DNA of 64,000 nt from Ulota crispa (taxonomy: Eukaryota > Streptophyta > Bryopsida > Orthotrichales > Orthotrichaceae), in the NCBI GenBank assembly GCA_963920765.1, contig OY987244.1, forward strand, positions 21,370,358 to 21,434,357, given 5' to 3'. Made by a program: the position numbers and the translations under genes. The notes below the pieces were generated by a model that was not told the DNA's origin, made no database searches, and worked only from the letters and a program-made list of their open reading frames with translations. Positions 244 through 62,623 of the stretch are shown here, in pieces; within the stretch, counting starts at the first letter, position 1, and every line of letters begins with the position of its first letter.

Positions 244-1183
244 TTAACCTCTAAAGGTCCAAGCCCTTTTTTTTTTGTGAAAGTCACTAATATCGTCACT
301 TCTAGGGCAATGAATAGAAAAGTAGAAAAATTGTTTTTTTGAAAAATCCAATCATAGGATCCTATCTTAGATTATGGGATATACTTGTAGAAAACAAATT
401 AGCTCACTCTAGATGTAGAGTGAGATGTTGACATCTAAAGTAGTTTTTTTTTTGTTTAATTTTCCATGTTACCCAAAATTTTCAAAAGCCTTTGGTTGCT
501 CCTATATCAAAAAAATTACTCTATGCAAAGTTCAAGTTTATTTTTTCCATGTAGGAGACCAAGTTAGGTAAGTGTGGGTGACTTTCCAAATGAATTGGAG
601 GTGTGAATCATACTTTGTAGAATCTTGCAATGCAATAAGGCCATGAAATTTGCATATACACTAGACAAATTTGGAGGATTTATGTAAAATTCAGAAATCT
701 GAATTACTTTTAATCCAAATGGTGAAAACCAAGGAATCTTAGTCTACTACAACTTGAAAAAAAATAAAAAAGAAAATCAAATCACCAAATTTTACAAGGG
801 GCAAAAGGAATGGAGGTTTGGGAGTCCCATTCCTACCTGCAAACTAAAACTTCTCACTCATCAATCAAAATTGAATGATTCGAAACTTACCACATATATA
901 AAAATCTAAAGAACCAATTTTTTATTTTTATTTTTTTAAATAAAAATTTTAAAAAAGTTTTTTGGGCTACCCAAACTACTTGCCCTCCCCTGCTGTTCAA
1001 AAACCCATGCATAACTTCCTCAATAAATGTCAGAATGAAGAAAAATTTAGATTTGCATATACACCTTTGAATTCCCCAACTTCCTCAAAAGTTTCAATTT
1101 TTTTATAAAAATGGATTTAGTTATAGGTACATGCCCGAGGTCTATTTGTCCCCAAAGGGAATAGTTGGGCCTTTAGGGGTAAA
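244..1183 (+). mobile_element. piggyBac-like non-autonomous element, copy 1
   Basis: The left end reads TTAA then CCTCTAAAGGTCCAAG, and the right end reads TTGGGCCTTTAGGGG followed by TAAA, a TTAA duplication with one mismatch. The interior matches the copy at 21076-22036 in the same order almost throughout, including the subterminal stretch ending in ATTTGTCCCC. No transposase reading frame is visible, so it is a non-autonomous derivative of about 0.94 kb. Strand + means that the CCAAG end is on the left. Confidence 0.75.
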
Positions 1184-2105
1184 GTGAATGAAATGTACAA
1201 AGGTAAGGTGAATAGTGGATACAAGAAAAACTTTGAGACATTGTCAAAGTGTCATTTGAATGTAATTGGCATGTTTATGGGTGTACAAGTATGCCTTGCA
1301 CGTTCTTTGTGATGTATCTCTCTAAAGTTCCTATGACTTTTTAGGTGACTCTTCACTCTACCTTTCCTTGCCTTTTATTCTCCCTCCCCACCTCAAATTT
1401 CCTATGGCTTTTCATTATCCCTATTCTTATCTTTTCTTCCCCTTCATTCTTTTTGAATTCCAATTTTTGGGTAATGCATAGACACCTAATGCTTGACAAT
1501 CAATACTTGACACCCAATGCTTCATAATATAGAGTTTTAAACTTATAATAGAGAATTTAGAGAAATAATCTAATAAATTTTACCCTCCCTTTGAATGCCT
1601 TTTCCTCTTCCTTCTCCTCTTTCTCACATAACTTGTGATGTTAGTAAAGAGTCATAACATGAGATAGTCAAACAACCCCCCTTTATAAATAGATATTATC
1701 ATATAAGATCAATTGTTTGGATGTGTTCAATATTTGGTAGAGAAGGTTATTGTGGCAGAAATCTTTTGGCAGTCTCAAAGATACTTGTGTATAGGCTATA
1801 GGTAAACTACATGAATATCAATTTCTAATGTTGATAACTCTAATTATGAAGCCTAGTACTAAATGTTTACAATCCTTTTAATGTTACCGACACTAAATGT
1901 CAATGTATACACTATTTGTGAACTACTATAATTTTTGGGGGTAATGTTTTTAACTAGTTTACATTTGGTGTTAGAAATCAGTTCATTTGGTTACAATAAA
2001 AAATGTAAATTTAAAAACTTCATTTAACAAATGTTATAACCTTTTGCAAATTGGCATTCTACATTATTTCAAAGAAGAAAATAAAACTAGAAAGAGGTTG
2101 TTTTT
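1184..2105. other. AT-rich intergenic DNA
   Basis: There is no gene or recognisable repeat boundary here. A 60-codon open frame at 1345-1527 lies in a pyrimidine-rich stretch and has no protein-like features. Confidence 0.5.
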
Positions 2106-2430
2106 AGGGAAAAATTTATGGATTTTCTTGAGGTTTGCCATATTTGCATAGATATTCCATGGTTTTTAGAAACCGCACAAATACCCTTGGACCATAATTT
2201 TCAAGCATTTGTTCTATTGTGCATGCCACTTCTTTCTCCCTTGTGCCCATTCTACTCCTTTCCATTATGTTGCACTATTTAAAATTGGTCATAATAGAAA
2301 TTAGCATGCATAACAAGACAAATACTTGAAAATTATGGTCCAAGAATATTTGTGCAATTTCTGAAAAACTAGGGGTATATAGTCTATAAAAGTATGGCAA
2401 ACTTGGGCGGTATCCAAAAAAAAGTTCCCT
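2106..2430. mobile_element. Foldback MITE, family E
   Basis: The ends are AGGGAAAA and TTCCCT. Both arms carry the same diverged block in opposite orientation: bases around 2140-2215 (GATATTCC, CTTGGACCATAATTTTCAAG) recur inverted around 2320-2390. Related copies are at 30433, 33104 and 54427. It is about 325 bp with long arms and no coding capacity. The target duplication is unclear. Confidence 0.65.
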
Positions 2431-4719
2431 TCTTTCTATACAACTAAAAATAAAATAATAAAATATTTTTTTTGGCTGAATTTACAAACTCTTCGTGTAG
2501 GAATATTCATTATAAGAATTGAGTATGCAAAACGCAGAATTGATACTACAAAATGTGTTACAAAGGCTTGTAAATTAGATAAACACTTTTCAAAACTTCT
2601 TGTTTGTATACAATGCAAAGAGAACAAAACTGATATTTAAGTTGGCCTAGTTTATTAAGTTACATCTTGCTCATAAGAATAAATTTTATGCATCGCAGTT
2701 ATTTTTTGAAAATGTAAAAAATAATTGGTTCAAACTCCAAGAGTTATCAACATTTGGTGCCATCCCACAATTGAATATGGTCTTTGTAGCGTAAGACGTA
2801 TTGTTGCAATTTGCTTGTTTACTGATATTTCTGATACTATCAATAATCAAATTTTTTCTCTCCCAAAGTTGGTAAAATTACCAAACTATTGACTATCACT
2901 ATAAGTAGAATTTTGCCAAATATTGGCTTTAATTAATTTTGAATTCTTTTGCTTTTCATTGCTTAGTTTAAGTTTTATTTATTTTTGAAATGATAAATGT
3001 ATAAACAAATGGATAATAATGAATTAAACTAAATAGTAAATACTAAAACAGTTAGGTTTCTAGCTAAAACAATTTCAAATCTTGATATTTTATAATTAGT
3101 ACAATTCTTAATCTAAACTGTTTTATTTTGTTGTTGCACATCAACAATAAAAACTCTTCAAAGTATTGAGAAAAAAATGTAAATCAATCCAACTTTTTTT
3201 ATTCCCTTTTATGAGTTACTTTAAAAATAGTATTGTTAAAACCACCACTAAAATAATAATTATTTGTATTAGTAAATGTTAGCATAGGAGCTTTTATTGG
3301 AATCCAATGTCCTCCTAAGATTTTGCCAACTATAATCCTAGAACCTTTTTTTGAAATGATTTCAGCATATTTAATAGTATAGTCTCTTCAAAATCCCAAG
3401 ATACAATTGATGTTAACTCTTAAAGATATGTGCATCCAGGAAGTGAATGCGCCTTGGTCAACCCTAATTGTAACTTTCAAAATATCAATTTTTGGTACGT
3501 GGTTCAATTTAAGAAAATGAAACTTGACAAGTTTCCTTTCTATTCCATTTGTTTTTTTTGAAAAATGTCAAAAATCAAAAAAGTTATTGTCATTGAAAGC
3601 TCTAAGTGTTAGAATCCAAATAACACAATATGGTGTGTTTTTCATTCATATTTTCTACTCTTTAAATGCATTTGACATTTAAACTACAAAATTATGTTTC
3701 TCATTCTACCATTCATTTATAATAGAAGTTATAGATGATTTTAATATATATTCTAATTGATATGATTTAATTTCCACATTTAGCTTTAAAAAAACACAAT
3801 AATTTAAATTTTCCATCAAGCTTATAAAAAAAACGTAGATAGAAAATGAATGTGTCTTCCAACAAAAAATATCCAAATTTTATAAATTGATTAAATATAA
3901 GGATAAACTTGGTTTGATAGGCAAATTTGATTTTAGATTCTTTGTTGTGGCTGTTTTGGGTGTAAAAAATAAAATAACCAATTAAAATTTTTTCACACTT
4001 ATCTTTAATGCTACTTGTACCTCTTCAAAAAAATTCAAGTAATTTGGATTTCTTTTGCTATTTTAACTTATTTATGTTCATTTTTTGAAAAGAAAATGAT
4101 AACAATTACAATTTTTCATAAAACACATTGAAAATTCTTAGAGTGATATATCATCCATAGTTTCAAGTAATAAAAATAAAAATTTATTGTTTGGACACAC
4201 TTTAAAAGGCAAAATTGAGCTTAGACATGAAGCTTAACCATTTCAAAATGGATCAAGTCCTTTAGGAGTTAACATTGATAACAAAATGGATTTTCTCTTT
4301 ATTTTTTATAAGGTTTTTATTTTACTAATCAGCTTAAAATCTCCTTTTCAACAAAACCAAATGACAAGTCATTTGTATTTCAATTAGGTGTTCTTTATTT
4401 GTAATACGTGTCAATCTATCTTATTGAAACAATAAAGTAACGTTGCAAACATTCATATTTTATGACATCCAAACATGACATATTTTTTTGGTGAATAATA
4501 CATTTTTTTGAAGATCTCTATACTGTTTTGTGTATGTAAAACTTACAGCTAATAATACATAAAGTGCTAATTCAATTAGCACATCTGAAAATATTGACTT
4601 GAATTATTTTTTAATCCATTTAAATGCGTTAAAAAGTTTAGAAAAAAAATCATTGCACTCAATTAGAATGTTTGTGTCTATGTCAAGTAACATCCTTTAT
4701 ATGCAACTGATTTTGTATC
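2431..4719. other. AT-rich intergenic DNA
   Basis: This is more than 2 kb of AT-rich sequence with many homopolymer runs. I see no gene, tRNA or clear repeat ends. The short open frame at 2436-2627 (minus) has no recognisable motif. Confidence 0.5.
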
Positions 4720-5304
4720 TTAACCCTTTTGGGCCTAGGGCGCCCCGAATCAAGTTGCTCAGCGAGTCTTTTCTTTAGTGCCAATGCACAATTCTTTCTC
4801 ATAATCCTTGAGCTCAGGGTGTTTGTTTTGATTTTGTCACTATAGACTGGCTGGCACCCCATAATGTACACAGAGGTAAGGAGAAATTGGTTAAATTGGA
4901 ATGAACGAATGATTTGTGCATGTTCATCCAATAAATTTACTAATATAAGCTACTTTCATCCAAAATTTGATAAACAAGGTGTTTGGGTAAGGATGGAGGT
5001 GACAATTTCATCCACTTTTTCATACAAATTTCTTAGTTTATTAGTGGCCACATGCAAACTAAGGTAAGATTTAGGTGAAAATTTGCCAAAAAAAAGAACC
5101 TTGTTTGAGCTTGACTCATTTTAATTCAAACTTCTGAATTCATTACTCTTCCAATAATAGTGTACATGGGCTTGTTTGATCCAAAATTCCCGTGCCCTTT
5201 GACATCTTTCAAATGTCACTTACAACCATAGCATGGCCAAAAAACTATTTCAAAAAAATTGTTATAATTGACCAAAATTGGCTTCCTCAGGCCTACAGGG
5301 TTAA
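4720..5304. mobile_element. TTAA-flanked element, divergent piggyBac-like
   Basis: A TTAA precedes CCCTTTTGGGCCTAGGG. The other end is CCTCAGGCCTACAGGG followed by TTAA. The two ends are imperfect inverted repeats beginning CCCT and sharing GGCCT. The element is about 0.58 kb without coding capacity. Its right TTAA is also the left TTAA of the next element, so the two abut exactly. Confidence 0.5.
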
Positions 5305-6353
5305 TGCCTAAAGCCCTGTGGCCTTTATTTTGTCAAAAGACACTCAAAATTGCCATTTCTATTGCAAAGAGTAAAAAAGTTTGAAAATTGATCTTTCTAC
5401 CTATCTAACCATAGGATCTTGCACTAGATTAGTGTAGGAATGTGCACAAAAATATTTAAAAACTTTGACTGCACAGATTGCAAGATATTTGCGTTCAAAG
5501 TGTAAAAAACAAACTTTTTGCACCTTGCATGATTAGATTATTTGACTTTAAACTTTTTTAACTTAAAATTTTTGCACCATAGAGGTTTGGGGTTTATTTT
5601 TAAATGGTGGAAAATTGAGTTGAGAATCTTTGGAAAAAAATCAAAACAAAAAATACTTAATTTTCATTCTTAAAAAAAACATTAGGTAGAAGAAGGTGTG
5701 AGACTGAACACAAACTTAAATTGTTAATAACCCTGCAATGGAATTGAAATGCAATAATCCCAATGGTAAGATTGTTCCAAAAAGAAAACTTTGCCCTTTC
5801 TAGCAATTTTTTTGAAAAAATGTTAAAACTGCATTCAAAAATGGAATTTATAAGTTATTTTTTCAAGAAGATGCTTGAGTTGCCCAAAAAACAAGACTGT
5901 CCATAACTTTCTCATAACTAGTCCAATTGGAATGAATCAAAGCATTATATGTTGAAAAAACTATAATCTATGAGGAAAAATAATTTAAATTTTTTTTTTG
6001 AAGTTTTTGTAAAAAACATTTTGCTGCCCAATGTCCATAATTTTTTGCTTATCTAGGCATGACTTTTGCTTCTAGGCAGAGATCACTACAAGAAAATGCT
6101 GTCAATTTGGTCATTTTTTGTAGATTTGGACATGTCAATTTGGACGCTTTTTTGTCAAAAAGTTTAGTCAATTTGGACAAATTAACAATGGTTTCTTGTA
6201 GTGGATTGAAATAAAATTTAGATTCCTCAAAAGCTAGTGTGTTTTTCTATCTTGAAAAAAAGTTTCAAAAAATCAAGACAAAAATTGAGGCCGTAGGTAC
6301 CTACCCAAGATCTCATTTGTCCCCCAAAAGGACAATAGGGCTTGAGGGATTAA
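5301..6353 (+). mobile_element. piggyBac-like element, subfamily 2
   Basis: It is bounded by TTAA on both sides (5301-5304 and 6350-6353). The left end TGCCTAAAGCCC and right end GGGCTTGAGGGA are decayed versions of the family ends. The interior matches the copy at 26268-27188 collinearly (TATTTTGTCAAAAGACACTC near the left end, ATTTGTCCCCC near the right). A CACTA MITE interrupts it at 6084-6203. Confidence 0.75.
6084..6203. mobile_element. CACTA-superfamily MITE (120 bp)
   Basis: It begins CACTACAAGAAA and ends TTTCTTGTAGTG, a perfect 12-bp inverted repeat of the En/Spm (CACTA) type. A 3-bp GAT duplication flanks it (6081-6083 and 6204-6206), as expected for this superfamily. The related element at 26268-27188 has one GAT and no insertion at the equivalent site (27038-27040), so the empty site is visible. 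The motif GTCAATTTGG occurs three times inside. Confidence 0.92.
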
Positions 6354-6491
6354 GACAAATTTTGTTATAAAAAAGTGTCAAATTAAAATCTTCACTTTTG
6401 TCATTAAAAATTTTGTTTCACAAATTCTACTATTGTAATGCCTTCATAAGATTGACACTTATTTGTTCTTGAACTTGTTCTAAACAAGTTC

Positions 6492-6883
6492 TAAGGTAGG
6501 AACACTCATAACTGTGAGTGTACCCTTGGCCATGACCTACGTCTAACACAAGCTGTCACGCATTTGAAATTAATAAACTTGGTGGTTATGGGAACTTAAG
6601 TGATGATTTTGGGTGACAAAGTGATGGTTGTAGGTGACTTGCATGACGGTTTAGAGAACCCCGTCTTGTTGTTTTTAGCATCTCCTACTCACGGCCATGG
6701 ATTTTCAGTGATTTTGGACTTTGAAAAATCTTTGTGAACAAATGCTTGCAATTGGGACTTTGAAATTAATCCCAATATTTTTCATTCCTTCTTACTAATC
6801 TAGCAATATTATTTTCAAACTTGTTTGATTAGGGTATATACCCTATAATGCTTAAACTCACGCTTATGAGTGTTCCTACCTTA
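6492..6883. mobile_element. TAAGGTAGG-ended MITE
   Basis: The left end TAAGGTAGGAACACTCATAA recurs as its reverse complement at 6864-6883, with the match continuing through GTGAGT. The element is 392 bp without coding capacity. The terminal motif is shared with elements at 24057, 55567 and 58364. The target duplication is ambiguous. Confidence 0.75.
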
Positions 6884-7423
6884 ATTATGCATGCACAAAG
6901 GCTTTAACACTATGAAATGTTTCATTCTTAAACATTTCAGCAATGACGTTTTTACGTGTTGCAATAGTTAAAAAAAAATTTCCAAGGCACGTTGCCAAGT
7001 AGAGAGTAAAGCAAATTGCTTTAAAAAATAACTAGGATTCTAACTGCAATTTATCTTAACTCATTGGATATTGGATAGAAAGATACCATAATATGTGTTA
7101 CAAAAAATATGATTTGATAAACCAATCACATTTCATAGCCACCATATATAATTTGAAATATTCCTATGTATAACGCTTTGTACAATCATTTTTATAGTAC
7201 GTTATGTAATACTCCATACAGTTCTTTATATAATCTTTTGTATAATATTTTGTGTTCCATATAATATTTCGTATGATCTTTTGTATAGTATTTTATATGG
7301 TCATTTGTGTACATTTTGTGTATAGTCATTTGTATAATATTCCTTATATTATTTTATGATATTTTGTGAAACATGCGTATATTTGTGCACAAAATATGTG
7401 TGTATCTTTCTATAAAATATATA
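6884..7423. other. AT-rich DNA with cryptic simple repeat
   Basis: From about 7160 to 7380 the motif TTTTGTATAAT and close variants recur many times irregularly. No gene is seen. Confidence 0.5.
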
Positions 7424-7627
7424 TTAACCCCTAAAGGCCCAAGGAACCCACTTTGGGTTTTATGAGAACTCGGGCAGGCTCTATTGACTTCATAATTTGG
7501 AATTTTTTCACAAAACTTTTAGGATGGATGCTACTCATCATAATTTACATGTGAAGCTTTATTTCATGTCATTTGGATAAGTATTGCAAAAGTTAGAAGT
7601 TTTTTTCAATTTCAAAGTCAAATCGGG
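7424..7627 (+). mobile_element. piggyBac-like terminal fragment
   Basis: TTAA followed by CCCCTAAAGGCCCAAG matches the family end exactly. The rest runs into a TA microsatellite and an assembly gap, so the right end cannot be placed. Confidence 0.5.
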
Positions 7628-7985
<358 letters not shown>

Positions 7986-7989
<4 letters not shown>

Positions 7990-13997: not shown

Positions 13998-14920
13998 TTA
14001 ACCCCCAAAGACAAAAGGCCCAACTGTCCCTTTAGGGGACAAATGGATTTTGGGCATGTACCTATAGCTAAATTATTTTGTGTGATTTTTTGAAACTTGT
14101 ATTGAAGGTTGGGAATTCCATGACCTACATGGACATCTATATTTTTCTTCATTCTGACATTTGATGCAAAAGCTATCAAGAATTTTCTAAAACTAGGCGA
14201 GAAGGGGCAGTTTGGGGAGGGCCTCTTCTATGTAAGTGGGTGTTGACTCCAAAGAGGGTTCAACCCTTGTGGGCACAAGGTGTGGACACTTGGGCAAAGG
14301 GGAGTAGAGTGGTGGACTCCCAAACCTCCATTCCTTTTGCCCCTTGTAAAATTTAGTGCTTTACTTTTTTGAGTGGCTTATGTATTTATTTTTTGATTAA
14401 TTTTTTCCCAAGTTGTAGTAGGCTAAGAACCCTTTGTTTTGTCGTTTGGATCAGAGTGATTTAATTTTTTGAGTTCCACATAAATCCTCCAATTTTGCCT
14501 AGTATATATGCAAATTTCATGGCCTTAATTTTGACATTGCAAGATTTTACAAAGTATGATTAACACCTCCAATTCATTTGAAAATTCTTCCACACATACC
14601 TAACTTGGTCTTCTACATGGAAAAAATAAACCTCAACTTTGCGTAGAGCAAGTTTTTTGATATAGGAGCGATCAAAGGCTTCTGAAATTTTTGGGCAGCA
14701 AGGAAAAAACTTTTTTTTTCACTTCAAATGTCAACACATCACTCCTCTACATCTAGAATAAGCTAATCTTATTCCCACAACTACCTCACATAGTTTAGGG
14801 CAAGACCATATGGTTGGATTTTCAAAAAAATTGTTTTTCCTACTATTCTATTCACTCCCCCAAAAATGGCAAATTTTAGTGATTTTCAAAGAAAAAAAAG
14901 CTTGGGCCTTTAGGGGTTGA
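13998..14920 (-). mobile_element. piggyBac-like element, reversed copy
   Basis: It starts TTAA, then CCCCCAAAGACAAAAGGCCC, and ends CTTGGGCCTTTAGGGG followed by TTGA (one mismatch to TTAA). The outer thirds match 21076-22036 in reverse order. The centre (about 14205-14310) is replaced by unrelated, less AT-rich sequence. No transposase frame is present. Confidence 0.75.
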
Positions 14921-17931: not shown

Positions 17932-18849
17932 TTAACCCTAAAGGACTAGATCCCCTTTTTTAGAAACATAGCAATTTTGGGTAGGTAACTGTGATTGGAG
18001 CTTTTCAAATTTATGTTGAAATTTTAATAGAACGTGGGGACGAGGTTTATCTTTCATGTGCACTAAATTTCATGACATTTGGAATTATGAGTAAAAAATT
18101 ATGGTTTTATATGTTGTTTTTTACATTTGTCAGGCAGCCTGGGCAAATTTTAAAAATCACCTTTTTCAAAAACAAATTTTTTAAATTGGTCTAAGAGATT
18201 TATATGAATATGGGAAGCGTTGAATCATTTCGTTTGGATCAACGGGATGAAACTTATGAGGATTTTTTGTTTGCGGGCAGTTTTTGATTCTCTTCTCTAA
18301 AATAAACTTTGAAGTCCTTTATTTTACTCAATTTTCAACATTTTGGAAAAAAACAAACCCAAAGGATGAAGATTGTTTATGACAACTTTATGACCATTGG
18401 ATTGGCATTTTTCATTTCCATAATTAAACTCTTAACAATTTAGTGTTTTGAATCAGTCTCTACTTCTTTTTACTTACTATTTTTTTTCCATATGTTATAC
18501 AACTCCAAATGATTTGAAACTTTTTTGACATGTACTTTACTTAAGTGGAATAAGTAATTTAGAGAAGCACCACCCACATGGCCTTTTTTCCTTAGGAATT
18601 TGACCTTCTGAAGGGTAGCTGCCCGATTTTTCACAAGACGTTTTTGAATATTCAAACCATTCTAACTTCCAATCCACGCGATGGAAAATTCTGAATTTTT
18701 TTCCACATCTTCTAAAACCATTCTTCTACAAGATCCTACGGTCATGTACGCATAAAAATGTTTTTGTTTTCAACTTTGGTTGATGCTCTAAAAATGACAG
18801 TTTTGAAGAGTTTTCTGGTGAAAACTTGACTTGGTCCTTTAGGTGTTAA
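17932..18849 (-). mobile_element. piggyBac-like element, subfamily 3, reversed
   Basis: Perfect TTAA duplications lie at 17932-17935 and 18846-18849. The ends are CCCTAAAGGACTAG and CTTGGTCCTTTAGGTG. The interior block with CTACTTCTTTTTACTTACTA is shared with copies at 43582 and 51993. It is 0.92 kb with no transposase. Confidence 0.75.
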
Positions 18850-21075: not shown

Positions 21076-22036
21076 TTAACCCCTAAAGGATCAAGCCCTT
21101 TTTTCTTTGAAAATCACTAAACATTGCCATTTTTGGAGGAATGATTAGAAAGATAGGAATTTTTTTTTTTTGGAAAGTCAACCATAAGATCTTGCCCTAA
21201 ACTATGGGAGGTACTTGTGGGAAAAATTTCAGCTCATTCTAGAAGTAATGGAGTGAGATATTGACATCTGAAGTGAAACAAAAAGATTTTCCCCCTGTTG
21301 CCCAAAAACTTCAAAAGCCTTTGACTGCTCCTATATCAAAAAAATTGTTCAACACAAAGTTGAGGTGTACTTTTTCCATGCAGAAGATCAAGTTAGGTAA
21401 ATGTGGGAGAATTTTCAAATGAATTGGAGGTGTGGATCATACTTTGTAAAATCTTGCAATGCCGTAAGGCAATGAAATTTGCATATATACTAGGCAAAAT
21501 TGGAAAATTTATGTAAAATTTAGAAATCTGAATTATTGTGATCCAAATGGTAAAAACCAAGGAGTCTTAGTCTACTACAACCTAGAAGAAAAAAAGTAAA
21601 AAAAATAAAACACAAAGAGCTCAAAAAAGGGAAGCAACAAATTTTACAAGGGGCAAAAAGAATGGAGGTTTGGGAGTCCCATACCTACCCCAAACTAAAA
21701 CTTCTCATAACTTTCATCTCATCAACCAAAATTGAATGATTTAAAGATTCTCACATTTGTGTATATCTAAAGAACCAATTCCACATATCCATTTTTTTTA
21801 AATGAAATTTTGATTTTTTTGGGCTGCCTGCCCTCCCCTTTTTCAGAAATTCATGCATGATTTCTTCAATAAATGTTGGAATGAAGAAAAATTAGATGCC
21901 CACGTAAATTTTTGAATTCTTCACTTGCAATAAAAGTTTCAAAAAATTTCAAAAAATCACAAAATATAGATTAACTATAGGTACATGCCCAAATTCCATT
22001 TGTCTCGTGAGGGGACAACTGGTCCTTTAGGGTTAA
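21076..22036 (+). mobile_element. piggyBac-like element, reference full copy
   Basis: This is the best-preserved 0.96-kb copy. Perfect TTAA duplications lie at 21076-21079 and 22033-22036. The left end is CCCCTAAAGGATCAAGCCC and the right end is ACTGGTCCTTTAGGG. It carries the subterminal block TACATGCCCAAATTCCATTT next to the right end. No reading frame of transposase size exists in any frame. It serves as comparison for the other copies. Confidence 0.85.
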
Positions 22037-24982: not shown

Positions 24983-26230
24983 TACACTGAATATTGCGTT
25001 TAGGTTGCCCCACATTACTTTCTTGAAATTCTATATTACATAAATATTTACTGCTGCTATAGTGATTTTCATTGAATTATTGCAACAATCAAACTTTGTA
25101 AGGATCTAGTAACAACAATGAAGCTGCAGAAAAAAAAATAAAAAATAAAATAGTGGCGTTCAAGTTATAAACCATGTGAAAATCCAAGAATATAGATAGT
25201 TACATGCACTTCCAAGTGACCAAGTGATGAGTCATGAGGTAACTTATCAAGGTAAGGCAACCTAATTGTTAAGGCAACTTAGCCCCTAAAGGCCCAAGCC
25301 CTTTTTTTTTGTGAAAGTCATTGAAAACTGCCATTTTGGGGGGAATGAGTAGAAAGTAGGAAATAAAGTTTGTTTTGCAAATCTAACCATAAGATCTTGC
25401 CTAAGACTAGAAGAGGTGCTTGTGGGAGAAAAATCAAGTCATTCTAAATGGAGAGGAGGGAGATATTTACATCTATGAAGTGAAAAAAAGGTTTTTTTTG
25501 TGTTGTCTAAAATATTCAAAAGCCTTTGACCACTCTTACATGAAAAGAATTGCTCTACACAAAGTTGAGGATTTTTTTTTCCATGTAGAAGACCAAGTTA
25601 GGTATGTGTGGGAGAATTTTCAAATCAATTGGAACTATACAATACATGGGAAAAAAATAGTAAGTAAAATGAAGTAGAGAATGAGTTAAAACCCAAAATT
25701 GTTAAGAATTTAATTATTGAAATGAAAAGATGCAAATCCGAAAGGTTATAATGTTGTGATAAATAATCTTCTTCCTTAGGTGTAGTTTTTTTTCTAAAAT
25801 ATTGAAAATTGTGGAAAATAAAGGACTTTAAAGTTTATTTTAGAGTAGAGGATCCATAATTGCCCACAAACTAAAACATCTCATAACTTTCATCTCATCG
25901 ATTGAAGTTGAATGATTCAAAGCTTCCCACATATAAAAAAATCTAAAGAACTAATTTCAGATTTTTATTTTTTAAAAACATAAATTTTAAAGAAGTTTTT
26001 GAGCTGCCCAGATTGCCCTCCCTCCCTTGGGTTGCAAAAATTCTTGCATAACTTCTTTGTCAAATGTCAAAATGAGGAAAAAATTAGATGCTTGCATAGG
26101 TCTTGGAATTCCCCACCTTCAATAAAAGGTTTGAAAAATCACAAAAACTTGATTAGCTATAGGTACATGCCCAAAATCCATTTGTCCCCTCGGGGGACAG
26201 TTAGGGCTTTAGAGGTTAAGTTAGGTGTAG
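24983..26230 (-). mobile_element. TACACTAA-ended element with TTAA insertion
   Basis: It starts TACACTGAATATTGCGTTTA and continues collinearly with 27274-27579 (reversed) to CTAATTGTTAAGGCAACT. It is then interrupted by the piggyBac-like copy at 25279-26218 and resumes as AGTTAGGTGTAG. The insertion lies a few bases from that in the sister element at 22557-24005. Confidence 0.65.
25279..26218 (+). mobile_element. piggyBac-like element, nested copy
   Basis: The left flank is TTAG then CCCCTAAAGGCCCAAGCCC. The right end is AGGGCTTTAGAGG then TTAA. The left half matches subfamily 1 and the middle matches subfamily 3 (AATTGTTAAGAATTTAATTA), so it is a mosaic. A GTCCCCTCGGGGGAC palindrome lies near the right end. 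Short open frames at 25420-25677 and 25999-26376 are repeat sequence, not genes. Confidence 0.75.
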
Positions 26231-31694: not shown

Positions 31695-31928
31695 TTAACC
31701 CCTAAAGGACACATTGTGCTGTTGCAACCAGTAGAATATAAGGTGTTTTTCTTGTATTTGGACTAGATTCACATCTTTACTGCATTTGAGATCAACAAAG
31801 AAGTTGGAGAATAGATCAAAGCCGTTCTAGTGAGCTATTGGAGATTCCAAATTAAAACTTCTTTTTGGTAGCAAATGCCAATTACAAAGCAGCGTATATA
31901 CTATGCCCTATGGTCCTTTAAGGGTTAA
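31695..31928. mobile_element. piggyBac-like MITE (234 bp)
   Basis: Perfect TTAA flanks (31695-31698 and 31925-31928) surround CCCCTAAAGGACACATTG and TGGTCCTTTAAGGG. A collinear second copy lies at 55770-56011. Shared interior blocks include TTTTTCTTGTATTTGGA and TTTGAGATCAACAAAGAA. It is the short MITE form of the TTAA family. Confidence 0.85.
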
Positions 31929-36058: not shown

Positions 36059-38110
36059 ATGCAATCTGTGCCGTTCTCCTTGCAGCAGCAGCGCTACGTC
36101 CACAGTCATCATCAATATCACACCAACGTTGCCGTCACTAGTCATCTGCAGCAGCACTGTTATAACTTGTACCATCACCTCCCTGCCGCCCTTCATGAAA
36201 TGCTTGGCTCTGTCGGTTCCAACCCCTCTGCCTCGACGAGTGAGCCGCCGGAAGCCAGCATCTCCCCAGGCATTTCCCCGGTTATCTCTCCGGCCATCTC
36301 TAGCCCCGTGCAACAACAACCGTATGGTCAAGCGGATCTCTCCCATTCCTCACGTGGACTAATGCAACTGCGCGACGTCCTGCTCGAGACCGCGCAATTC
36401 GTCTCTCAATGTGACTGGGACCGAGCTCGACCCCTGCTTGAATTGCTCAGCAGACGCGTGTCGGCCACGGGAGACTCCAGTGAGCGCGTAGCCGCCTGCT
36501 TTTTTGAAGCTTTGGCCACCCGGTACTCCATAGTTTCCGGCATCGAGGTAAACCTGCTTCACCACTTCTCCATCATTTCTCACAAGTACTGTCTTGTCAA
36601 CCCTGTTTGCTACCAATGATCTTCTGTTCGTTAAATATCCCGCTTCGCTTAGCGTATGAACATCAATTGTCTTAGTTTCTAAGCGTGTTAAACTTCCAGA
36701 CACCAGAACGTGTCAGCCATAACAGATACCTAACCAACTCCTAGGTGCTTGTGGAATATTTTTTTGTTTAGTTTTCCAACGGAGTAATGACCTATTCGAG
36801 GCTCTTTTATCACAACCAACGCCAAATCTGATGAAAAATCAGTTTATGAAATTTCGAAGAGTCAGAACTAATGCATTCACGTTACTACTACTACTACTTA
36901 CTACTGTTCTCTCATCATCTGATCAATCATCCTCATCATTTAGTACATTCTGGTCGGGAACCTTCCCAAGTAACTGTAGACCTGACAAGTCTGCAATAGC
37001 GCAGCAGCACCTGCCCCAGGTTATAACTTTTCTTTCTCGTGTGAAGGGATGATTGACTTTTGTCTCGGCACTTATGATAACGCCGATCATGTGGTTAGAA
37101 CTTGGTGAATATTATTATGGTTCGTTATTAATTATAACGTGGGATGCATGCACGCGTAGATTATCGATTTGGTACCAGCTCCGACACACGAACCGAGCAG
37201 CGAGGAGATTCTCTCAGCCTATCTGGCTCTGAATCAAGTCACGCCGTTCATGCGATTCGCACATCTGACGGCCAACCAAGCGCTTCTGGAGGCTTTAACT
37301 GGGGAAGATTTCGTGCACATCGTGGACCTGGACATCGGCCATGGGGTGCAGTGGCCGCCATTCCTGCAAGCGCTGGCAGATCTGCGAGGAGAGGAGGGGT
37401 TCAGCATCCAGCACATCCGCATCACAGGGATGAGCCAGAACAGAGAAATGCTCGATCGAACGGGATCTCGCCTGATGGACTTTGCGCAATCCGTTAATTT
37501 GTCGTTTGAGTTCATTCCATTGGTGCAACCTCTGGATAGTCTTGTCCCGAACATGCTGGACTTGAGGCGGGGAGAGGCTGTGGCTGTGAACTGTATGCTC
37601 CAGCTGCACCGCTTGCTAGCGAAGGGGCATGAGAAGCTGACTGCTTTTTTAACCATGTTGCAGTCTCTGTCTCCGAAAATGGTCACTCTGGCAGAGTTGG
37701 AAGCAAGCCACAACCAGTTCCATTTTCTGGACCGATTTGCTGAGGCGTTGAATCACTACTCCGTTTTGTTCGATTCCCTGGAGGCTTCACTCCCGCCAAC
37801 CAGCGCTGAGAGGACACGCATTGAGCAGACGTGGTGTAAGATGGAAATTGTGAACATTGTGGCCTGTGATGGCTCCGACCGCACGGTCAGGCACGAGCGC
37901 TTCGAGGAATGGCGCACTTTTTTCGAGTGGTCTAATTTCCAGTTGATGGCAACGAGTAGATTCGCCATAGCACAAGCGAAGTTGCTGCTACGACTTCACT
38001 ACCCTTCGGCAGGATACCAGCTTGTGGAGGATGAAGAAGGAGTGCTGCTGCTGGGGTGGCAAGACCACCCGCTATTTTGTGTTTCCGCTTGGCGCACTGT
38101 TAGCATGTGA
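36059..38110 (+). CDS. LAS-like: GRAS-family transcriptional regulator, LATERAL SUPPRESSOR (LAS/SCL18) clade
   Basis: Two exons, 36059-36547 and 37160-38110, join in phase 0 (GAG/gtaaac donor, acgcgtag/ATT acceptor) to give 479 residues. The N terminus is His/Gln-rich (residues 9-41), followed by a Ser/Pro stretch (68-83, with ISPVISPAISSP). The GRAS domain fills 101-476: leucine heptad region I (101-205), FMRFAHLTANQA, the VHIID motif as VHIVD at 215-219 followed by DIGHGVQWPP, heptad region II with NCMLQLHRLL, PFYRE-type region from about 335, RHERF (407-411) and the SAW end (GWQDHPLF, SAWR at 472-475). HYPSAGYQL and FDSLEASLPPTS are close to LAS proteins. GRAS proteins act in the nucleus, and LAS is known for axillary meristem formation in flowering plants. 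The intron inside heptad region I is notable because angiosperm LAS is usually intronless. The start is the first ATG after an in-frame stop at 36026. An upstream-exon start is possible. Confidence 0.9.
36548..37159 (+). other. Intron of the LAS-like gene (612 bp)
   Basis: The GT-AG intron is phase 0. Its 5' end GTAAAC follows codon 163, and its 3' end is CGCGTAG. It is AT-richer than the exons and contains in-frame stops, and its removal restores a continuous GRAS heptad region. Acceptors further downstream (37178, 37200) would shift the frame. Confidence 0.8.
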
Positions 38111-43581: not shown

Positions 43582-44540
43582 TTAATCTCTAAAGGCCCAA
43601 CTGTCCCCCTGCCCCTGGGGACACATGAATTTTGGGCATGTACCTATACTCCTATAGGCTATAGCTAATCTAGTTTTTGTGATTTTTTGAAATTTTATTG
43701 AAGGTGGGGAATTTCAAGACCTGTGCAAGCATCTAATTTTTTCTTCATTTTGACATTTGATGAAGAAGTTATGCAAAAAATTTTGCAACCCGAGGGAGGG
43801 AGGGCAATTCGGGCAGCCCAAAAACTTCTTTCAAATTTGTATTTTTTTAAAATAAAAATCTGAAATTGGTTCTTTAGATTTTTTTTATATGTGGGAAGCT
43901 TTTAATCATTCAATTTCAATCAATGAGATGAAAGTAATGAGATGTTTTAGTTTGTGGGCAGTTACGGATCATCTACTCTAAAATAAACTTTGAAGTCATT
44001 TATTTTCTACAATTTTAAATATTTTGGAAAAAAAACTAAACATTACATTGTTTATTACAATATTGTAACCATTGGGATTTGCATTTTTCATTTCAATAAT
44101 TAAATTCTTAACAATTTACTAATTTGAATCATTCTCTACTTCTTTTTACTTACTATTTTTTCTTATGTGTTGTATAGTTCCAATTGATTTGAAAATTCTC
44201 CCACACATACCTAACTTGGTCTTTTACATGGAAAAAATAAATCTCAACTTTGTGTAGAGCAATTTTTTTCATGTAAGAGTGGTCAAAGGCTTCTGAATTG
44301 TATGGACAGCACAGAAAAAAACCTTTGTTTTCACTTTAGATGTAAATATCTCCCTCCTCTCCATCTAGAATGACCTAATTTTTTTCCCACAAGCACCTCT
44401 TTTGGTCTAAGGCAAGATCCTATGGTTGGATTTGCAAAACAAACTTTATTTCCTACTTTTCTTCTCATTCCCTTGAAAGTGACCATTTTGAGTGACTTTC
44501 ACGGAAAAAAGACTTGGACCTTTAGGGAATTAGGGGTTGA
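43582..44540 (-). mobile_element. piggyBac-like element, subfamily 3, reversed
   Basis: TTAA then TCTCTAAAGGCCCAACTG on the left, and GACTTGGACCTTTAGGG with a small end duplication (AATTAGGGGTTGA) on the right. GTCCCCCTGCCCCTGGGGAC forms a subterminal palindrome. It is collinear with 17932-18849 and 51993-53888. It has no transposase. Confidence 0.75.
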
Positions 44541-51992: not shown

Positions 51993-53888
51993 TTATCCCC
52001 TAAAGGACCATTGCCCATTTGGGGGATAAATGGGATTTTGGGCATGTACTTATGGCCAAACTACTTTGTGTGATTTCTTGAAACTTTTATTGAAGGTGAG
52101 GAATTCAAAGATCTACACAGGAATGTAACTTTTTCTTCATTCCGACATTTATTGAAGAAGTTATGCATGCAAATTTGGAAAAAGCTGCTCCCTGGGCAAC
52201 CAAAAACTTCTTTAAAAATTTCATTTTTTTCAAATAAAAATCTGAAATAGGTTCTTTAGACTTATATAGATGCTCCGGGGGGGTCACACACCGTTATGTT
52301 TGTATACCACGTGCAATAATGGGGTATTTAAAGGGAGGGTATTTATGTTCTCTAAGGGAATTTTTTCCTTCCTATCTTTAGATAAAAAGCTACTATGGTG
52401 TATTTTACACCACCCTAATTTTATTTGTAAATGGTTTAGAGAACAAATTTATGACACCCTATTTTATTTACAAATTGGAATTTACAATAATTGAGACAAT
52501 GAAAGCTAGGAGCATTCAAATTGCTAGAACACATGTCTGTAGAGAATCACTCTCTTCCTGCTCTAACATGCTTGCTTTCACATGTATGGTATTTAACACC
52601 TTCTAAACTATTCAATGAATTATGGACTAAGCATCTTCTGAGAAAAACATTAAGAGATCTCTCGATGGGTGCATACATCGGGAGATCTCCTGATGGCTAT
52701 GTAGATCTGGAGATCTCCCGTCAAAGGGAAAATAAGCCTAGTGGAGGAATCCAAGGGGCATGAAACCTTGTCAACAATCTAAACATCAAGCGCTTCAAGG
52801 CATCCAAAGCTAATGAACCTCAATAAGGGTAGGTTACTATTGTTACAGCCTAACTCTACACCTATTCCTATTGAGAGCGCCACCATGCAACAGCCACGTG
52901 TAACCCAAAACCCTTAAATCCTAACCCTTTTTCATCCACTTCATTTCCAAGCTGGATAGAAAGTGCAATCCCTTTCATCCAAATTGTTGAAACATTTAAA
53001 ATCAAACTCAACCTACTAAGCATTTTTTGGAGGATCATATTTCTCCTACCCTATTTTTCCCTAAAAAGGAGAAAAATGGACCAATATTCACAATCCTATT
53101 TTACTTATAATGGAGCAAAAGAAATATTTTCAATGCTATGGTAGATCTAATATATATATATATATTTTATCTCCAATGAATAAAATTGACCCTACTTTTT
53201 ATCTCACCTAGTTTTCTAAAATTTAAATGGTCACCCCCCCCCCCAAGTATAGACGTAGGGAGCTTTGAATCATTCAATTTTGATAGATGAGATGAAAGTT
53301 ATGAAGAGTTTTTGTTTACAAACAATTCTAGATTCTCTACTCTAATATAAACTTTGAAGTCCATTATTTTACTCAATTTTCAAAATTTTGAAAAAAAAAA
53401 CCAAAAGGATGTAGATTGTTTATCACAACATTATAACCATTGGGATTTTCATTTTTCATTTTAATAATTAAATTCTTAACAATTTGGTGTTTTGACCCAT
53501 TCTCTACTTCTTTTTACTTACTATTTTTTCCCATGTGCCAATTGATTTGAAAATTCTCCCACATATACCTAACTTGGTCTCCTACATGGGAAAAATAAAC
53601 CTCAACTTTGTGTAGAGTAAATTTTTTTATCTAAGAGTGGTCAAAGCCTTCTGAAATTTTTGGGCAGCAGCAAAAAAACTTTTTTTTGCAATTCAGATGT
53701 AAATACCTCACTCATTTTTGTGTAGATTGAGCTGATTTTTTTACCACGCATACATCTTGTAGTCTACTATAAGATCTTATAGTTGAATTCTTGTAAAAAA
53801 TATTTTTCTTACCATTGTACTTGCTTTCCCAAAAGTGGCAGTTTTCTGTGTTTTTCACAAAAAAATGGCTTGGTCCTTTAGGGGTTAA
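51993..53888 (-). mobile_element. piggyBac-like element, subfamily 3, interrupted
   Basis: The left flank TTAT precedes CCCCTAAAGGACCATTGCCC. The right end CTTGGTCCTTTAGGGG precedes TTAA. It is collinear with 43582-44540 once the insertion at 52273-53251 is removed. The join point lies in TTCTTTAGACTTATATAGA. Confidence 0.75.
52273..53251. mobile_element. Insertion with G/C-run ends, possibly hAT-like
   Basis: The ends CTCCGGGGGGGT and ACCCCCCCCCCCAAG are imperfect inverted repeats. Flanks TATAGATG and TATAGACG are an 8-bp duplication with one mismatch, as expected for hAT elements. Subterminal TATTTAAAGGG and ATTTAAATGG motifs also mirror. The 80-codon frame at 52521-52763 includes three GAGATCTC palindromes and has no transposase motifs. 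Confidence 0.6.
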
Positions 53889-55566: not shown

Positions 55567-55772
55567 TAAGGTAGGTACACCCAAATCCAACCATGTACTT
55601 AAGGGAGTCACTATGTACACATGGTGGTCATTTTAGAACTCAAATCTACGTATACCATAGATAACTTATATTTTGTATCTATGGTATACCTAAATTTGAA
55701 TTCTTAAATGACCACCATGTGTACATAGTGACGCCCTCAAGTACATGGTTGGATTTGGGTATACCTACCTTA
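55567..55772. repeat. Near-perfect 206-bp palindrome, TAAGGTAGG ends
   Basis: The left arm, from TAAGGTAGGTACACCCAAAT through CACTATGTACACATGGTGGT to TATACCATAGATA, is repeated inverted up to ATACCTACCTTA. Arms are about 93 bp with a loop of about 20 bp. A transcript would form a long hairpin. Its right end overlaps the TTAA of the next element. Confidence 0.9.
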
Positions 55773-56011
55773 ACCCCTAAAGGATGAGGCAGCCTTTTGC
55801 AACTAATACAATACTAGGTATTTTTCTTGTATTTGGAGTGCATCCACACCTTTATTACATTTGAGATCAACAAAGAAAGTAGAATATAGATCAATGTTGT
55901 ACTAGTGAGGTAGTCGAGATCCCAAATTAAAACTTTTTGTTGGTAGCAAATGCCAGTTATACACTAGTGTACATAGTATGTATTATACTAGCTCCGTCCT
56001 TTAAGGGTTAA
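55770..56011. mobile_element. piggyBac-like MITE (242 bp)
   Basis: Perfect TTAA flanks (55770-55773 and 56008-56011) surround CCCCTAAAGGATGAGG and CGTCCTTTAAGGG. It is collinear with 31695-31928. Confidence 0.85.
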
Positions 56012-56250
56012 ACCGAGCCTTAACCTAAAGGACCAACTATCCCCTTGGGGGACAAATGGAATTTGAGCATGTACCTATAGCTAATCTACTTTTTGTGATT
56101 TTTTGAAACTTTTATTGAAAATGAGCAATTCAAAGATCTACATGGACATCTAGTTTTTTCTTCATTCCGACATTTATTGAAGAAGTTATACATGAATTTC
56201 TGAAAAAGGGAGAGGTCGGGCACCCCAAAAAAAACCAAAATTGCATTTTT

Positions 56251-56828
56251 TTAAACCCCTAAAAGACCAAGCCCCTTTTTTGGGGACAAATGGGATTTTG
56301 GGCATGTACCTATGGCTAAACTACTTGCGTGATTTTTTGAAACTTTTACGGATGATGGGGATTTCAAAGATTTACGTGGGCATCTAATTTTTTTCTTCAT
56401 TCTAATATTTATTGAAGAAGTTAAAAATGAATTTCCAAAAACAGGCGAGATTGGGCACCTGAAAAACTTTTTAAAATATTGCATTTAAAAAAAATAAAAA
56501 TATGAAATAGGTTCTTTAGACTTTTATATACATAAGGAGCTTTGAATCATTTAATTTTGATTGATGAGATGAAGGTTATGAAAAGTTTTTGTTTGCAAGT
56601 AGGTGTGGTTTCGAGAGTTTTTGGGCTGCCCAATCTTGCCCATTTTTGGAAATTTATTTTTAACTTCTTCAATAAACGTCAGAATGAAGAAAAATTTAGA
56701 TGCCCCCCGTAGATATTTGAATTCCACACCTTCAATAAAAGTTTCAAAAAATCACAAAAGGTGGATTAACTATACATGCCCAAAATCCATTTGTCCTTCA
56801 AGGGGATAGTTGGTCCTTTAGAGGTTAA
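56251..56828. mobile_element. piggyBac-like element, symmetric, nested
   Basis: TTAA flanks (56251-56254 and 56825-56828). Both ends are the same subfamily end in opposite orientation (CCCCTAAAAGACCAAGCCCC and TTGGTCCTTTAGAGG, each next to a GGGCATGTACC-type block or its inverse). It is therefore a palindrome-like composite of 578 bp. It lies inside the poly-T/AAATCTGAAAT junction of the outer copy. Confidence 0.8.
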
Positions 56829-57009
56829 CTAAAAATCTGAAATTGATTCTTTAGATTTATACAAATGTGCAAATCTTTGAATCATTCAATTTTGATTGAT
56901 GAGATGAATGTTATGAGAAGTTTTAGTTTGCAGGTAGGTATGGGGCTCCCAAACCTCCATTCTTTTTGCCCCTTGTAAAGTTTGTTACTTTACTTTATTG
57001 AGTTCTCTA

Positions 57010-57011
<2 letters not shown>

Positions 57012-57052
<41 letters not shown>
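57012..57052. repeat. Poly-T tract (41 nt)
   Basis: An uninterrupted T run inside a piggyBac-like copy. Length may be imprecise. Confidence 0.9.
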
Positions 57053-57577
57053 CAGATTGTAGAAACTAAGATTCCTTGGATTTTACCATTTGGATCAAAG
57101 TAATTTAGATCTCTCAATTTTACATAAATCCTCCAATTTTACATAAATCCTCCAATTTTGCCTAGTGTATATGCAAGTTTCATGGCCTTACGGCATTGCA
57201 AGACTTTACAAAGTATGATTCACACCTTCAATTCATTTGAAAATATTCCCACATTTACCTAACTTGGTTTTCTACATGGAAAAAATAATCCTCAACTTTG
57301 AGTAGAGCAATTTTTTTGATATAGGAGCAGTCAAAGGCTTCTAAAATTTTTGGACAGTAGGGAAAAAACTTGTTTTTTCACTTCAAATGTCAATATCTCA
57401 CTCCTTTACTTCTAGAATGAGCTGAAATTTTTCCCACAAGCACCTTCCATAGTCTGCAAGATCTTACGGTTGAATTTTTGAAAAAAATAATTCCTACTTT
57501 TCTACTCATTCCCCCAAAAGTATAATTCTCAGTGATTTTCAAAGAAAAATGGGCTTGGTCCTTCCTTTAGGGGTTAA

Positions 57578-59609: not shown

Positions 59610-59639
59610 TTGTACTATAATATATTACAATACGGTAAA

Positions 59640-60265: not shown

Positions 60266-60268
<3 letters not shown>

Positions 60269-60489
60269 AATTGCTAAAGCCACACCCAAAATTGCTAACG
60301 CCACACCCCTATAAGCATGTAATTTGAGAACTTAATGTTAATTTTTTAATCCAAATGATCCATCCTTCATTCAATCACGGTGTTAACACCTTCTTGGAAG
60401 AATGAAGAACAAATAAAAATGTTTGTTGAACTTTTATTGCACTATTGTTATTTTTTTGATTTATTTATGTTTTGAGTATTTCAAAAAGT

Positions 60490-60689
60490 NNNNNNNNNNN
60501 NNNNNNNNNNNNNNNNNNNNNNNNNNNNNNNNNNNNNNNNNNNNNNNNNNNNNNNNNNNNNNNNNNNNNNNNNNNNNNNNNNNNNNNNNNNNNNNNNNNN
60601 NNNNNNNNNNNNNNNNNNNNNNNNNNNNNNNNNNNNNNNNNNNNNNNNNNNNNNNNNNNNNNNNNNNNNNNNNNNNNNNNNNNNNNNNN
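60490..60689. other. Assembly gap (200 N)
   Basis: Exactly 200 N, the same size as the gap at 7739-7938. The real length is unknown. Confidence 0.99.
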
Positions 60690-62027: not shown

Positions 62028-62284
62028 GAATATTGGAAAAGCTTAGCTAGGGGAAAACTACTTCTACCTTTGTAAAAAAAAGCAAAGCTTTTCCATTGGG
62101 CATTCTTCAATTGTATCCTTCTTTATAGTTCTAGAGTAAATTGAGGTCTCTAAATCCAAATGTAAATTCTAATTTCCCATATTCAACTTGTTAATGGTAA
62201 ATATCTAAATTTTTCACCCCTCCCAAGCCCCCCTCTAGTGTACATATAACAAACATTGGGTGTGCATATATATATCAATCCCCT
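62028..62284. mobile_element. Foldback MITE, family F, half copy
   Basis: It contains AAAGCTTTTCCATTGGGCA, GAGGTCTCTAAATCCAAAT and the terminal ATATATATCAATCCCCTT, matching the right half of 50639-51017. The left arm is missing. Confidence 0.6.
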
Positions 62285-62289
62285 TCAAA

Positions 62290-62623
62290 ACGTTATGAAA
62301 TTTTGGCATATGACCAACTCTAATAAAAAAGTCAATCTAAAAAAATACAAGCCAAAAATTGAAATTAACTAGTGCAAAAGCATCCCCAAATTAGAGCTGC
62401 CCAAAATTTGAATGCCCAAAAGAAAATCTATTTCTTACTTAAAACACTATAATTTCACAATCTATGAAGCAAATGTCTTTCATCTTTTACCATAGCACAA
62501 TGAAATAGTATACTAGATAAATTGCACCAAGCATTCATTTTCTATTATTTTTGCCTTTGCTATCAAAACAAATTGTTCTAAGTGTTTTTTGGTGAAACAT
62601 AGATAAACGTCTTTAAGGGTTAA
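62290..62623 (-). mobile_element. piggyBac-like fragment, subfamily 5
   Basis: It ends with GTCTTTAAGGG then TTAA (62620-62623) and matches the element at 44924-45580 in reverse, including TGGTGAAACATAG and TTTGCTATCAAAACAA. The other end is lost next to the foldback half copy. Confidence 0.6.

Follow-up and report, generated by a model that had tools for sequence, protein, structure and literature searches.

The piggyBac transposon is a workhorse tool for gene transfer, and in nature piggyBac is known chiefly from animals, with scattered occurrences elsewhere. The moth element is about 2.5 kb long and its ends start with CCC, like those described here. In the moth Trichoplusia ni, one end of piggyBac carries a palindrome at bp 17-33 that is bound by the cysteine-rich domain, according to PMC7351741. 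Among plants, a passage of a review labels some MITE families of angiosperms as PiggyBac (PMC10004981), and a passage on the fern Ceratopteris counts 1,230 copies of PiggyBac repeats totalling 122,417 bp (PMC6890710). An apparent mention in a moss genome paper was discarded, as the matching passage has the word "piggybacking" (PMC10619864). A search of open-access literature turned up no description of moss piggyBac transposases, which is consistent with the statement of an earlier, sequence-only reading of our locus that the superfamily has seldom, if ever, been described from land plants.

Here we analyze this locus, a stretch of 64,000 nucleotides that we call the window. We conclude that the repeated copies in it are almost certainly non-autonomous transposons of the piggyBac superfamily, and that those of type A derive, through loss of internal sequence, from elements of 8.3-8.8 kb that have the same ends and contain a DDD (DDE_Tnp_1_7) transposase.

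Copies in the window

The motif TTAACCCCTAAAGG, with up to two mismatches, occurs 24 times in the 64,000-nt window, against 0.75 times on average and never more than 4 times in 100 dinucleotide-preserving shuffles, which confirms the earlier observation of a transposon family. Using the interior CCCCTAAAGGACC with up to two substitutions, we found 25 ends in the window, 12 of them with TTAA outside and 18 with at least three of these four bases; the reversed control gave none. The accepted ends have a CCY start and short inverted repeats, in the form of CCCCTAAAGGACC and its relatives. Because ends were sought by this type of feature, it is their pairing alone that counts as independent evidence. 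The following features were annotated, using a ten-copy library built from contig C1 and the long elements X046, X047 and X048 that are described below.

244..1183, minus strand: type A non-autonomous copy, 940 bp; TTAA / TTTA outside; library match; matches the X047/X046 3' end from its first base and the X046 5' end to its last base
5301..6353, minus strand: decayed copy; TTAA / TTAA outside; each end at 3 edits from CCCCTAAAGG; library match; final ~105 bp match the X046/X047 5' end
7424..7437, plus strand: solitary TTAA-CCCCTAAAGG end from the motif search; only one end seen
13998..14920, plus strand: type A copy, 923 bp; TTAA / TCAA outside; library match; both X046/X047 ends matched, the 5' end from its base 17
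17932..18849, plus strand: copy of 918 bp with a different interior; TTAA on both sides; last 120 bp match the X047 3' end, with no 5' match
21076..22036, minus strand: type A copy, 961 bp; TTAA / TTAA outside; library match; X046 3' end matched from its first base, X046 5' end to its last base
25279..26219, minus strand: type A copy, 941 bp; TTAG / TTAA outside; library match; both X046 ends matched, first to last base
31695..31928, no strand assigned: short type, 234 bp; TTAA on both sides; ends CCCCTAAAGG / CCCTTAAAGG
36059..38110, plus strand: host GRAS-domain gene in two ORFs, from a Pfam scan; outside the transposon family
43582..44527, no strand assigned: copy known by homology; library match; ends in the motif search
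51993..53888, plus strand: type A copy, 1896 bp; ends match X046/X047, with other sequence in the middle; library match
55770..56011, no strand assigned: short type, 242 bp; TTAA on both sides
56020..57577, plus strand: type A copy enclosing the nested copy 56252-56828; TTAA on both sides; library match; homology to the long elements
56252..56828, no strand assigned: nested copy of the fold-back type, composed of two 5' ends; its host site has uninterrupted relatives

The sequence-only reading listed nine pairs of ends flanked by TTAA, and TTAA is indeed present on both sides of all nine. Six of these pairs have ends within two edits of CCCCTAAAGG (17932/18849, 21076/22036, 31695/31928, 55770/56011, 56020/57577 and 56251/56828), and 5301/6353 is a copy by homology, even though each of its ends has decayed by 3 edits. 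In contrast, 4720/5304 and 8809/9201 are unsupported as copies, since their ends are 3-5 edits off and they match neither the ten-copy library nor the long elements. The pair 56251/56828 is a copy, but its start was off by one, the better register being 56252 with TAAA outside. Likewise, neither the ten-copy library nor the long elements match the copies at 31695..31928 and 55770..56011, so the evidence for both of these ~240 bp copies consists of their ends and TTAA.

The ten-copy library covers 9,515 of the 64,000 window bases (14.9%), and the reversed library covers none. The description of the family as dominating the locus therefore holds in the sense of roughly 15% of the window by a small library. 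As had been proposed, there are several interior types: types A and B, at ~0.92-0.96 kb and ~0.95 kb respectively, the fold-back type with two 5' ends and the ~240 bp type. The GRAS gene, together with psaB of the plastid contig, supports the view that the host is a land plant. It is probably a moss; the PDB entries closest to the plastid psaB are, we presume, those of Physcomitrium patens photosystem I.

Transposases in the genome

A profile search of the genome with PF13843 (DDE_Tnp_1_7) gave at least 120 matches, with a best E-value of 1.3e-73; the number is a lower bound, as 116 of 528 first-look transposase candidates were scored. All 120 listed matches fall outside the window, in agreement with the claim that it holds no autonomous copy, and there were no PF13843 matches in any of 14 control genomes. 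Comparison with solved transposases gave sequence matches to piggyBac (6x67, E-value 3.6e-20) and piggyBat (9c0f, E-value 1.4e-16). Among 37 domains, the three positions of the catalytic DDD triad are occupied by D in 34, 28 and 31 cases, and 13 of the 18 exceptions are N.

A C-terminal cysteine-rich motif fits a strict pattern in two of the scanned loci (L033 and L028), and a looser version is visible by eye in L036; the pattern picked out none of the other scanned loci, where many frames are broken. Nine ORFs from transposase loci were scanned against Pfam and matched PF13843 or nothing, those upstream of the transposase domain being among the ORFs with no match. We regard these upstream ORFs as putative, unproven N-terminal exons of a transposase that is apparently split over exons.

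In the transposase tree, whose final version includes L028, L032 and L033, a clade of L017, L018, L026 and L030 has support of 98/95. This is the clade of the partner elements, and all four members have 2-6 stops in the transposase domain, so that no working source is seen.

Long partner elements and the origin of the short copies

The sequence-only reading proposed searching the genome for a DDD piggyBac transposase flanked by ends of the window's type. Such a transposase is present in three elements of 8.3-8.8 kb, each bounded at both edges by TTAA and window-type ends, with PF13843 inside:

X046, C5:24506226-24515054
X047, C8:11097229-11105483
X048, C9:12440860-12449389, minus strand

With a flank of only 1.5 kb, the 30 best transposase loci had no TTAA-CCCCTAAAGG ends, because the transposase elements are about 5-9 kb long and their ends are seen with longer flanks. 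Reading long flanks of 20 transposase loci gave both ends for 10, one end for 8 and none for 2. For L033 and L041, we preferred a nearer 3' end to a higher-scoring outer one; the outer candidate of L033 closes a neighboring short copy, and the choice for L041 follows its close relative L042. L034 and L036 were rejected as complete partners, as their apparent 5' ends are short copies inserted alongside.

Among 12 window copies compared with the long elements, six matched at both ends, two at one end and four at neither (4720/5304, 8809/9201, 31695/31928 and 55770/56011). Judged by these alignments, the six that match at both ends look like internally deleted derivatives of the long elements. 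The homology of short copies to the long elements runs inward from the termini, with 91.7% identity over 181 bp from base 1 for L060 and, starting at base 2, 93.9% over 180 bp for L057. Across three diverged transposase-bearing elements, it extends from the terminal bases, covering ~180 bp of one end and ~350-610 bp of the opposite one.

The alternative that survives best is that certain short types represent separate inverted-repeat families, whose similar ends arose by convergence and which have no transposase in common. Type B has only short stretches in common with the long elements, no long partner was seen for it among the elements compared, its interior aligns with that of type A at only ~50% identity, and the ~240 bp copies do not match the long elements at all. 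However, types A and B agree in their 12-15 bp ends, in the TTAA and in having a palindrome at bp 24-25 of the 5' end, and type A has matching long partners. We therefore consider convergence improbable overall, the likeliest cases being type B and the ~240 bp type.

It is less likely still that another TTAA-targeting superfamily mobilized the short copies, and that the piggyBac elements are unrelated neighbors. Kolobok and Sola3 likewise use TTAA, the ends are so common that proximity proves little, and L034 and L036 illustrate how a short copy beside an element can pass for its 5' end. However, the terminal homology to three diverged transposase-bearing elements argues against this explanation, as does the lack of inward-facing partner ends near the edges of X046-X048. 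Moreover, end type tracks the transposase tree, and one prediction made on this basis was successful: a window-type 3' end was predicted for L026 from its clade, and was found with TTAA, its first base being 1,762 bp downstream of the domain.

TTAA as the target

Of 11,594 exact CCCCTAAAGGAC ends genome-wide, 9,807 have TTAA directly outside, and X046, X047 and X048 have it on both sides. Losses at a single position affect the outermost T (VTAA, 384 ends) about as often as the innermost A (TTAB, 344 ends), so TTAA acts as a single target unit. A Tc1/mariner-type element with a TA duplication, an inverted repeat starting with A and a mere preference for T-TA-A is very improbable: TTAA-CCCC can arithmetically be read as T-TA-ACCCC, and single empty sites cannot separate TA from TTAA duplication, but the outermost T would then be expected to vary far more than the inner A, and the domain inside the partners is that of piggyBac, not Tc1/mariner.

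We queried 11 junctions, and uninterrupted paralogous sites came from only one, among 45 matches listed (the best 40 of 3,160 candidates scored). Each of the nine sites retrieved reads straight through the junction with a 4-bp unit, so that, relative to these nine paralogues, the insertion added the element plus 4 bp. As the empty sites read CCAA, not TTAA, they establish the size of the unit rather than a TTAA duplication in that repeat, where a TTAA prior to insertion is an inference. Identity is only 89-91% for the 39 best of the other copies of one element; nothing thus shows current movement, and this subfamily has the look of an older burst.

The piggyBac assignment made from the sequence alone is upheld by this TTAA unit and by PF13843 inside same-ended partners. 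Neither of the results that it had named as contrary appeared: genome-wide flanks do prefer TTAA, and the nine ORFs scanned from transposase loci matched no other transposase class.

A palindrome in the 5' end

The 5' ends of six transposase clades have a palindrome centered at bp 25, which none of 2,000 shuffles reached. Its sequence differs between clades, while its position is constant. The 3' ends have no fixed palindrome, as their peak at bp 29 was reached by 152 of 2,000 shuffles. The 5' palindrome of X048 is weak (2 of 6 pairs). L034 was kept out of the set of 5' ends, and L036 was counted in the first comparison and left out later. An unexpected observation is that the position at bp 25 coincides with the site bound by the cysteine-rich domain in moth piggyBac.

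The best explanation is that several transposase lineages, each with its own ends, coexist in the genome. By analogy with the moth element, the transposase would join one 5' end and one 3' end, and the 5' palindrome around bp 25 may be the binding site of its C-terminal cysteine-rich domains. It would cut at TTAA and insert the element at a new TTAA, so that each side is again flanked by TTAA, and the short copies would have been mobilized in trans in the past. A broader hypothesis, to which we give slightly less than an even chance, is that mosses house an old, diversified piggyBac radiation, with at least six clades in one genome, each with a rewritten 5' palindrome kept at about bp 25, the very site bound by the dimer of cysteine-rich domains in moth piggyBac, with mutually exclusive transposase-end pairs, and with one group spread to more than ten thousand ends.

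Comparison with known systems

The moss family belongs to a known superfamily, piggyBac, in an unusual host. With its ~10^4 ends, its variety of transposases and the non-autonomous copies that match them, this plant genome extends the range of piggyBac to land plants, and this extension rests on the transposase partner, and not on a label alone. The family also provides a natural test of how transposase-end specificity co-evolves, given that the position of the palindrome is kept and its sequence is not. For annotators of bryophyte genomes, it gives a name to a family covering ~15% of the window.

The moss elements resemble T. ni piggyBac (6x67/6x68; PMC7351741) in the TTAA outside, the DDD catalytic domain, and the asymmetric ends with a palindrome in one of them (bp 17-33 in the moth), and some moss copies also have the C-terminal cysteine-rich motif. 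They differ from it in their length of about 5-9 kb, their land-plant host and their apparently exon-split transposase. Moreover, their palindrome sequences vary by lineage. The catalytic domain is also like that of bat piggyBat (9c0f) over most of its length, although the sequence similarity is distant, and the host and ends are different. The angiosperm MITEs and Ceratopteris repeats have a plant host and the PiggyBac label in common with the moss family. However, the passages on them give a label or a repeat count, whereas the moss family has a same-ended partner that bears a transposase.

A piggyBac-like family with TTAA targets

Evidence from sequence indicates that the repeat family in the window is a piggyBac family in an unusual host, and that its main type has a transposase-bearing partner elsewhere in the genome. 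The sequence-only reading had reported this family and interpreted it as piggyBac; the finding is real and the interpretation correct. With at most two mismatches allowed, the window contains TTAACCCCTAAAGG 24 times, against 0.75 expected. Genome-wide there are 15,411 exact occurrences (7,719 + 7,692), compared to 1 for the reversed control, and CCCCTAAAGGAC is found exactly 11,594 times (control 11). A library of ten copies taken from contig C1 covers 9,515 of the 64,000 window bases, and the same copies reversed cover 0.

TTAA lies outside 9,807 of the 11,594 CCCCTAAAGGAC ends. If the elements instead duplicated TA, with the A belonging to the repeat, equal decay of the outer and inner positions of TTAA would not be expected. 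These positions decay alike: TAA is preceded by a non-T base at 384 of the ends, and TTA is followed by a non-A base at 344. This is what a target of all four bases, TTAA, would predict.

Nine coordinate pairs had been proposed as copies with TTAA on both sides, and TTAA is indeed present on both sides in all nine. As copies, six of them have good ends and 5301/6353 is decayed, though homologous, while 4720/5304 and 8809/9201 are unsupported; in addition, the start proposed at 56251 has a better register at 56252. At window positions 5301-5304, and at 6347-7315 of transposase locus L033, an element is inserted right at the edge of another, with one tetramer shared and the copies head to tail.

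Several opposed CCCCTAAAGGAC ends about 0.9 kb apart were among the matches listed, and we fetched ten opposed end pairs with spacings of 0.65-0.96 kb. Two of the fetched short copies, L057 (C1:177643-179058) and L058 (C1:193469-194884), are identical in opposite orientation, and both are flanked by AAAG / TTAC instead of TTAA, so they are a local inverted duplication and not two insertions.

Transposase genes

The piggyBac transposase domain, PF13843 (DDE_Tnp_1_7), has at least 120 matches in the genome (best E-value 1.3e-73; 116 of 528 candidates scored) and none in 14 control genomes. The reading frame of locus L031 matches the solved transposases of moth piggyBac (E-value 3.6e-20, over the first two aspartate motifs) and bat piggyBat (1.4e-16, over all three). 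A cysteine-rich tail motif lies 207 bp past the domain in L033 and L028, and the tail is also visible in L036.

Most transposase copies are damaged, since the matched stretch is free of stops in just 10 of 120 matches, several of them partial. We read the catalytic triad in 37 of the 120 domains, taken from those with fetched DNA and an unbroken match: the three positions are D in 34, 28 and 31 cases, and 13 of the 18 exceptions are N. The glutamate after the first D has become K in 6 of the 37. Such D-to-N and E-to-K losses are what deamination of cytosines would be expected to leave in copies that are silenced and methylated.

Elements linking transposase and ends

No ends were found around transposase loci within 1.5 kb of flank. 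By our reading of 20 loci of 7-10 kb, the transposase lies between two CCC-type ends in 10, has one such end in 8 and none in 2, each end counted having TTAA outside with at most one mismatch. Three long elements, X046 (8,829 bp), X047 (8,255 bp) and X048 (8,530 bp), are bounded at either side by TTAA and by ends of the window family. In common they have a 5' end (274-316 bp, 74-77% identity), the transposase region (65%) and a 3' end (366-506 bp, 72-75%). Upstream of the domain they also carry a loosely conserved reading frame with a DFLDSQ motif, which has no Pfam match in X048; it is perhaps an acidic N-terminal exon, set apart from the domain by a long intron containing other repeats.

Type A copies, non-autonomous and about 0.92-0.96 kb long, match both ends of these elements, running inward from the terminal bases. 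Against the 5' end of X046, L060 is 91.7% identical over 181 bp starting at base 1, and L057 93.9% over 180 bp starting at base 2; the 3' match extends for about 350-610 bp at 70-84%. Because both ends match in this way, the anatomy of type A points to internal-deletion derivatives of such long elements. Among 12 window copies, six match at both ends (four from first to last base), two at one end (17932 and 5301) and four at neither (31695, 55770, 4720 and 8809). Type B copies (L054, L056 and L062) have short stretches only in common with the long elements, and L063 and the nested window copy at 56252-56828 are fold-back copies, each built from two 5' ends.

In the transposase tree, the domains of the three long elements (L017, L018 and L030) group with L026 at 98/95. 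A window-type 3' end was predicted for L026 from this clade, and in a check that covered the 3' end only, such an end (CCCCTAAAGGACCGAGCC...) was found next to TTAA; it starts 1,762 bp downstream of the domain. In L017, L018 and L030, the distance from the domain to the outer TTAA edge is 1,632-1,756 bp.

Insertion sites and age

We searched the genome with 11 joined flanks in one query (45 matches listed; 40 of 3,160 candidates scored). In nine other places, the genome matches the joined flanks of the L054 element without a break at the junction, with 81-84% identity. Each of the nine empty sites, when fetched, had exactly four bases, CCAA, in place of the TTAA-element-TTAA of the filled site, and thus the element arrived with four extra bases. 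Either the copy of the host repeat in L054 had already gained TTAA when the element came in, or the element used an imperfect site. Among the matches listed, none crosses any of the other 10 junctions by 25 bases on both sides. For the nested copy, 14 local matches span the joined flanks, and at the site the 11 that were aligned have TTAA (1), TAAA (3) or other A-rich tetramers (7).

The best 39 other copies of one 925-bp element (40 of 9,400 candidates scored) are 89-91% identical to it, which fits one older burst, and these 39 show no sign of current movement.

Genome and host

The assembly comprises 275 Mb in 157 contigs, and the window, at C3:21370358-21434357, has a GC content of 33.9%. 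It contains:
36059-38110, GRAS-domain gene
Two runs of exactly 200 N (7739-7938 and 60490-60689) are probably scaffold gaps or masked stretches. A 169-nt inverted repeat at 7670-8007 straddles the first run, of which it is probably an artefact.

Contig C157 (112.5 kb), where both psaA and psaB are intact, is regarded as the plastid contig. The 400 residues of its psaB that were read best match 7ksq, 6l35 and 8htu, PDB entries for Physcomitrium patens photosystem I, and the host is probably a moss. Plastid DNA is frequently transferred to the nucleus, given that 46 of 48 matches to the psaA/psaB family are outside C157, on contigs C1-C10 and mostly as fragments.

Among the papers listed in our search of open-access literature, none reports piggyBac transposases in a moss. 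A table from a fern genome paper gives 1,230 PiggyBac-labelled repeats (PMC6890710), and passages in two reviews count PiggyBac among angiosperm MITE superfamilies (PMC10004981) and plant DNA transposon superfamilies (PMC10794571). The moth piggyBac tool is described, in a passage of a moss paper, as yet to be tried in P. patens (PMC5505980).

A palindrome in the 5' ends

Beyond the sequence-only reading, the analysis adds the partner elements, several coexisting lineages and a palindrome near bp 25. In twelve 5' ends this palindrome is centred at bp 25, with a sequence that differs by lineage. Its mean arm complementarity is 0.72, a value attained by 0 of 2,000 shuffles (largest 0.49); the next best centre has 0.40. 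Ten 5' ends give 0.72 (next 0.42, background 0.26; 0 of 2,000), and when six separate clades of the tree are represented by one 5' end each, the value is 0.81 (0 of 2,000). Nothing comparable was seen in thirteen 3' ends, where 152 of 2,000 shuffles attain the peak value. The ends were picked by TTAA and their first 15 bases (for two 3' ends, a neighbour or relative also guided the pick), so the palindrome does not depend on how they were selected. In window-type 5' ends it is centred at bp 24, with 6 of 6 pairs in X046, 5 of 6 in X047 and only 2 of 6 in X048, and short copies are centred likewise.

In moth piggyBac, the left end has a palindrome at bp 17-33 that is bound, asymmetrically, by a dimer of the cysteine-rich domain (PMC7351741). 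From the corresponding position of the moss palindrome, at bp 25, we infer that the moss and moth elements have a common binding geometry.
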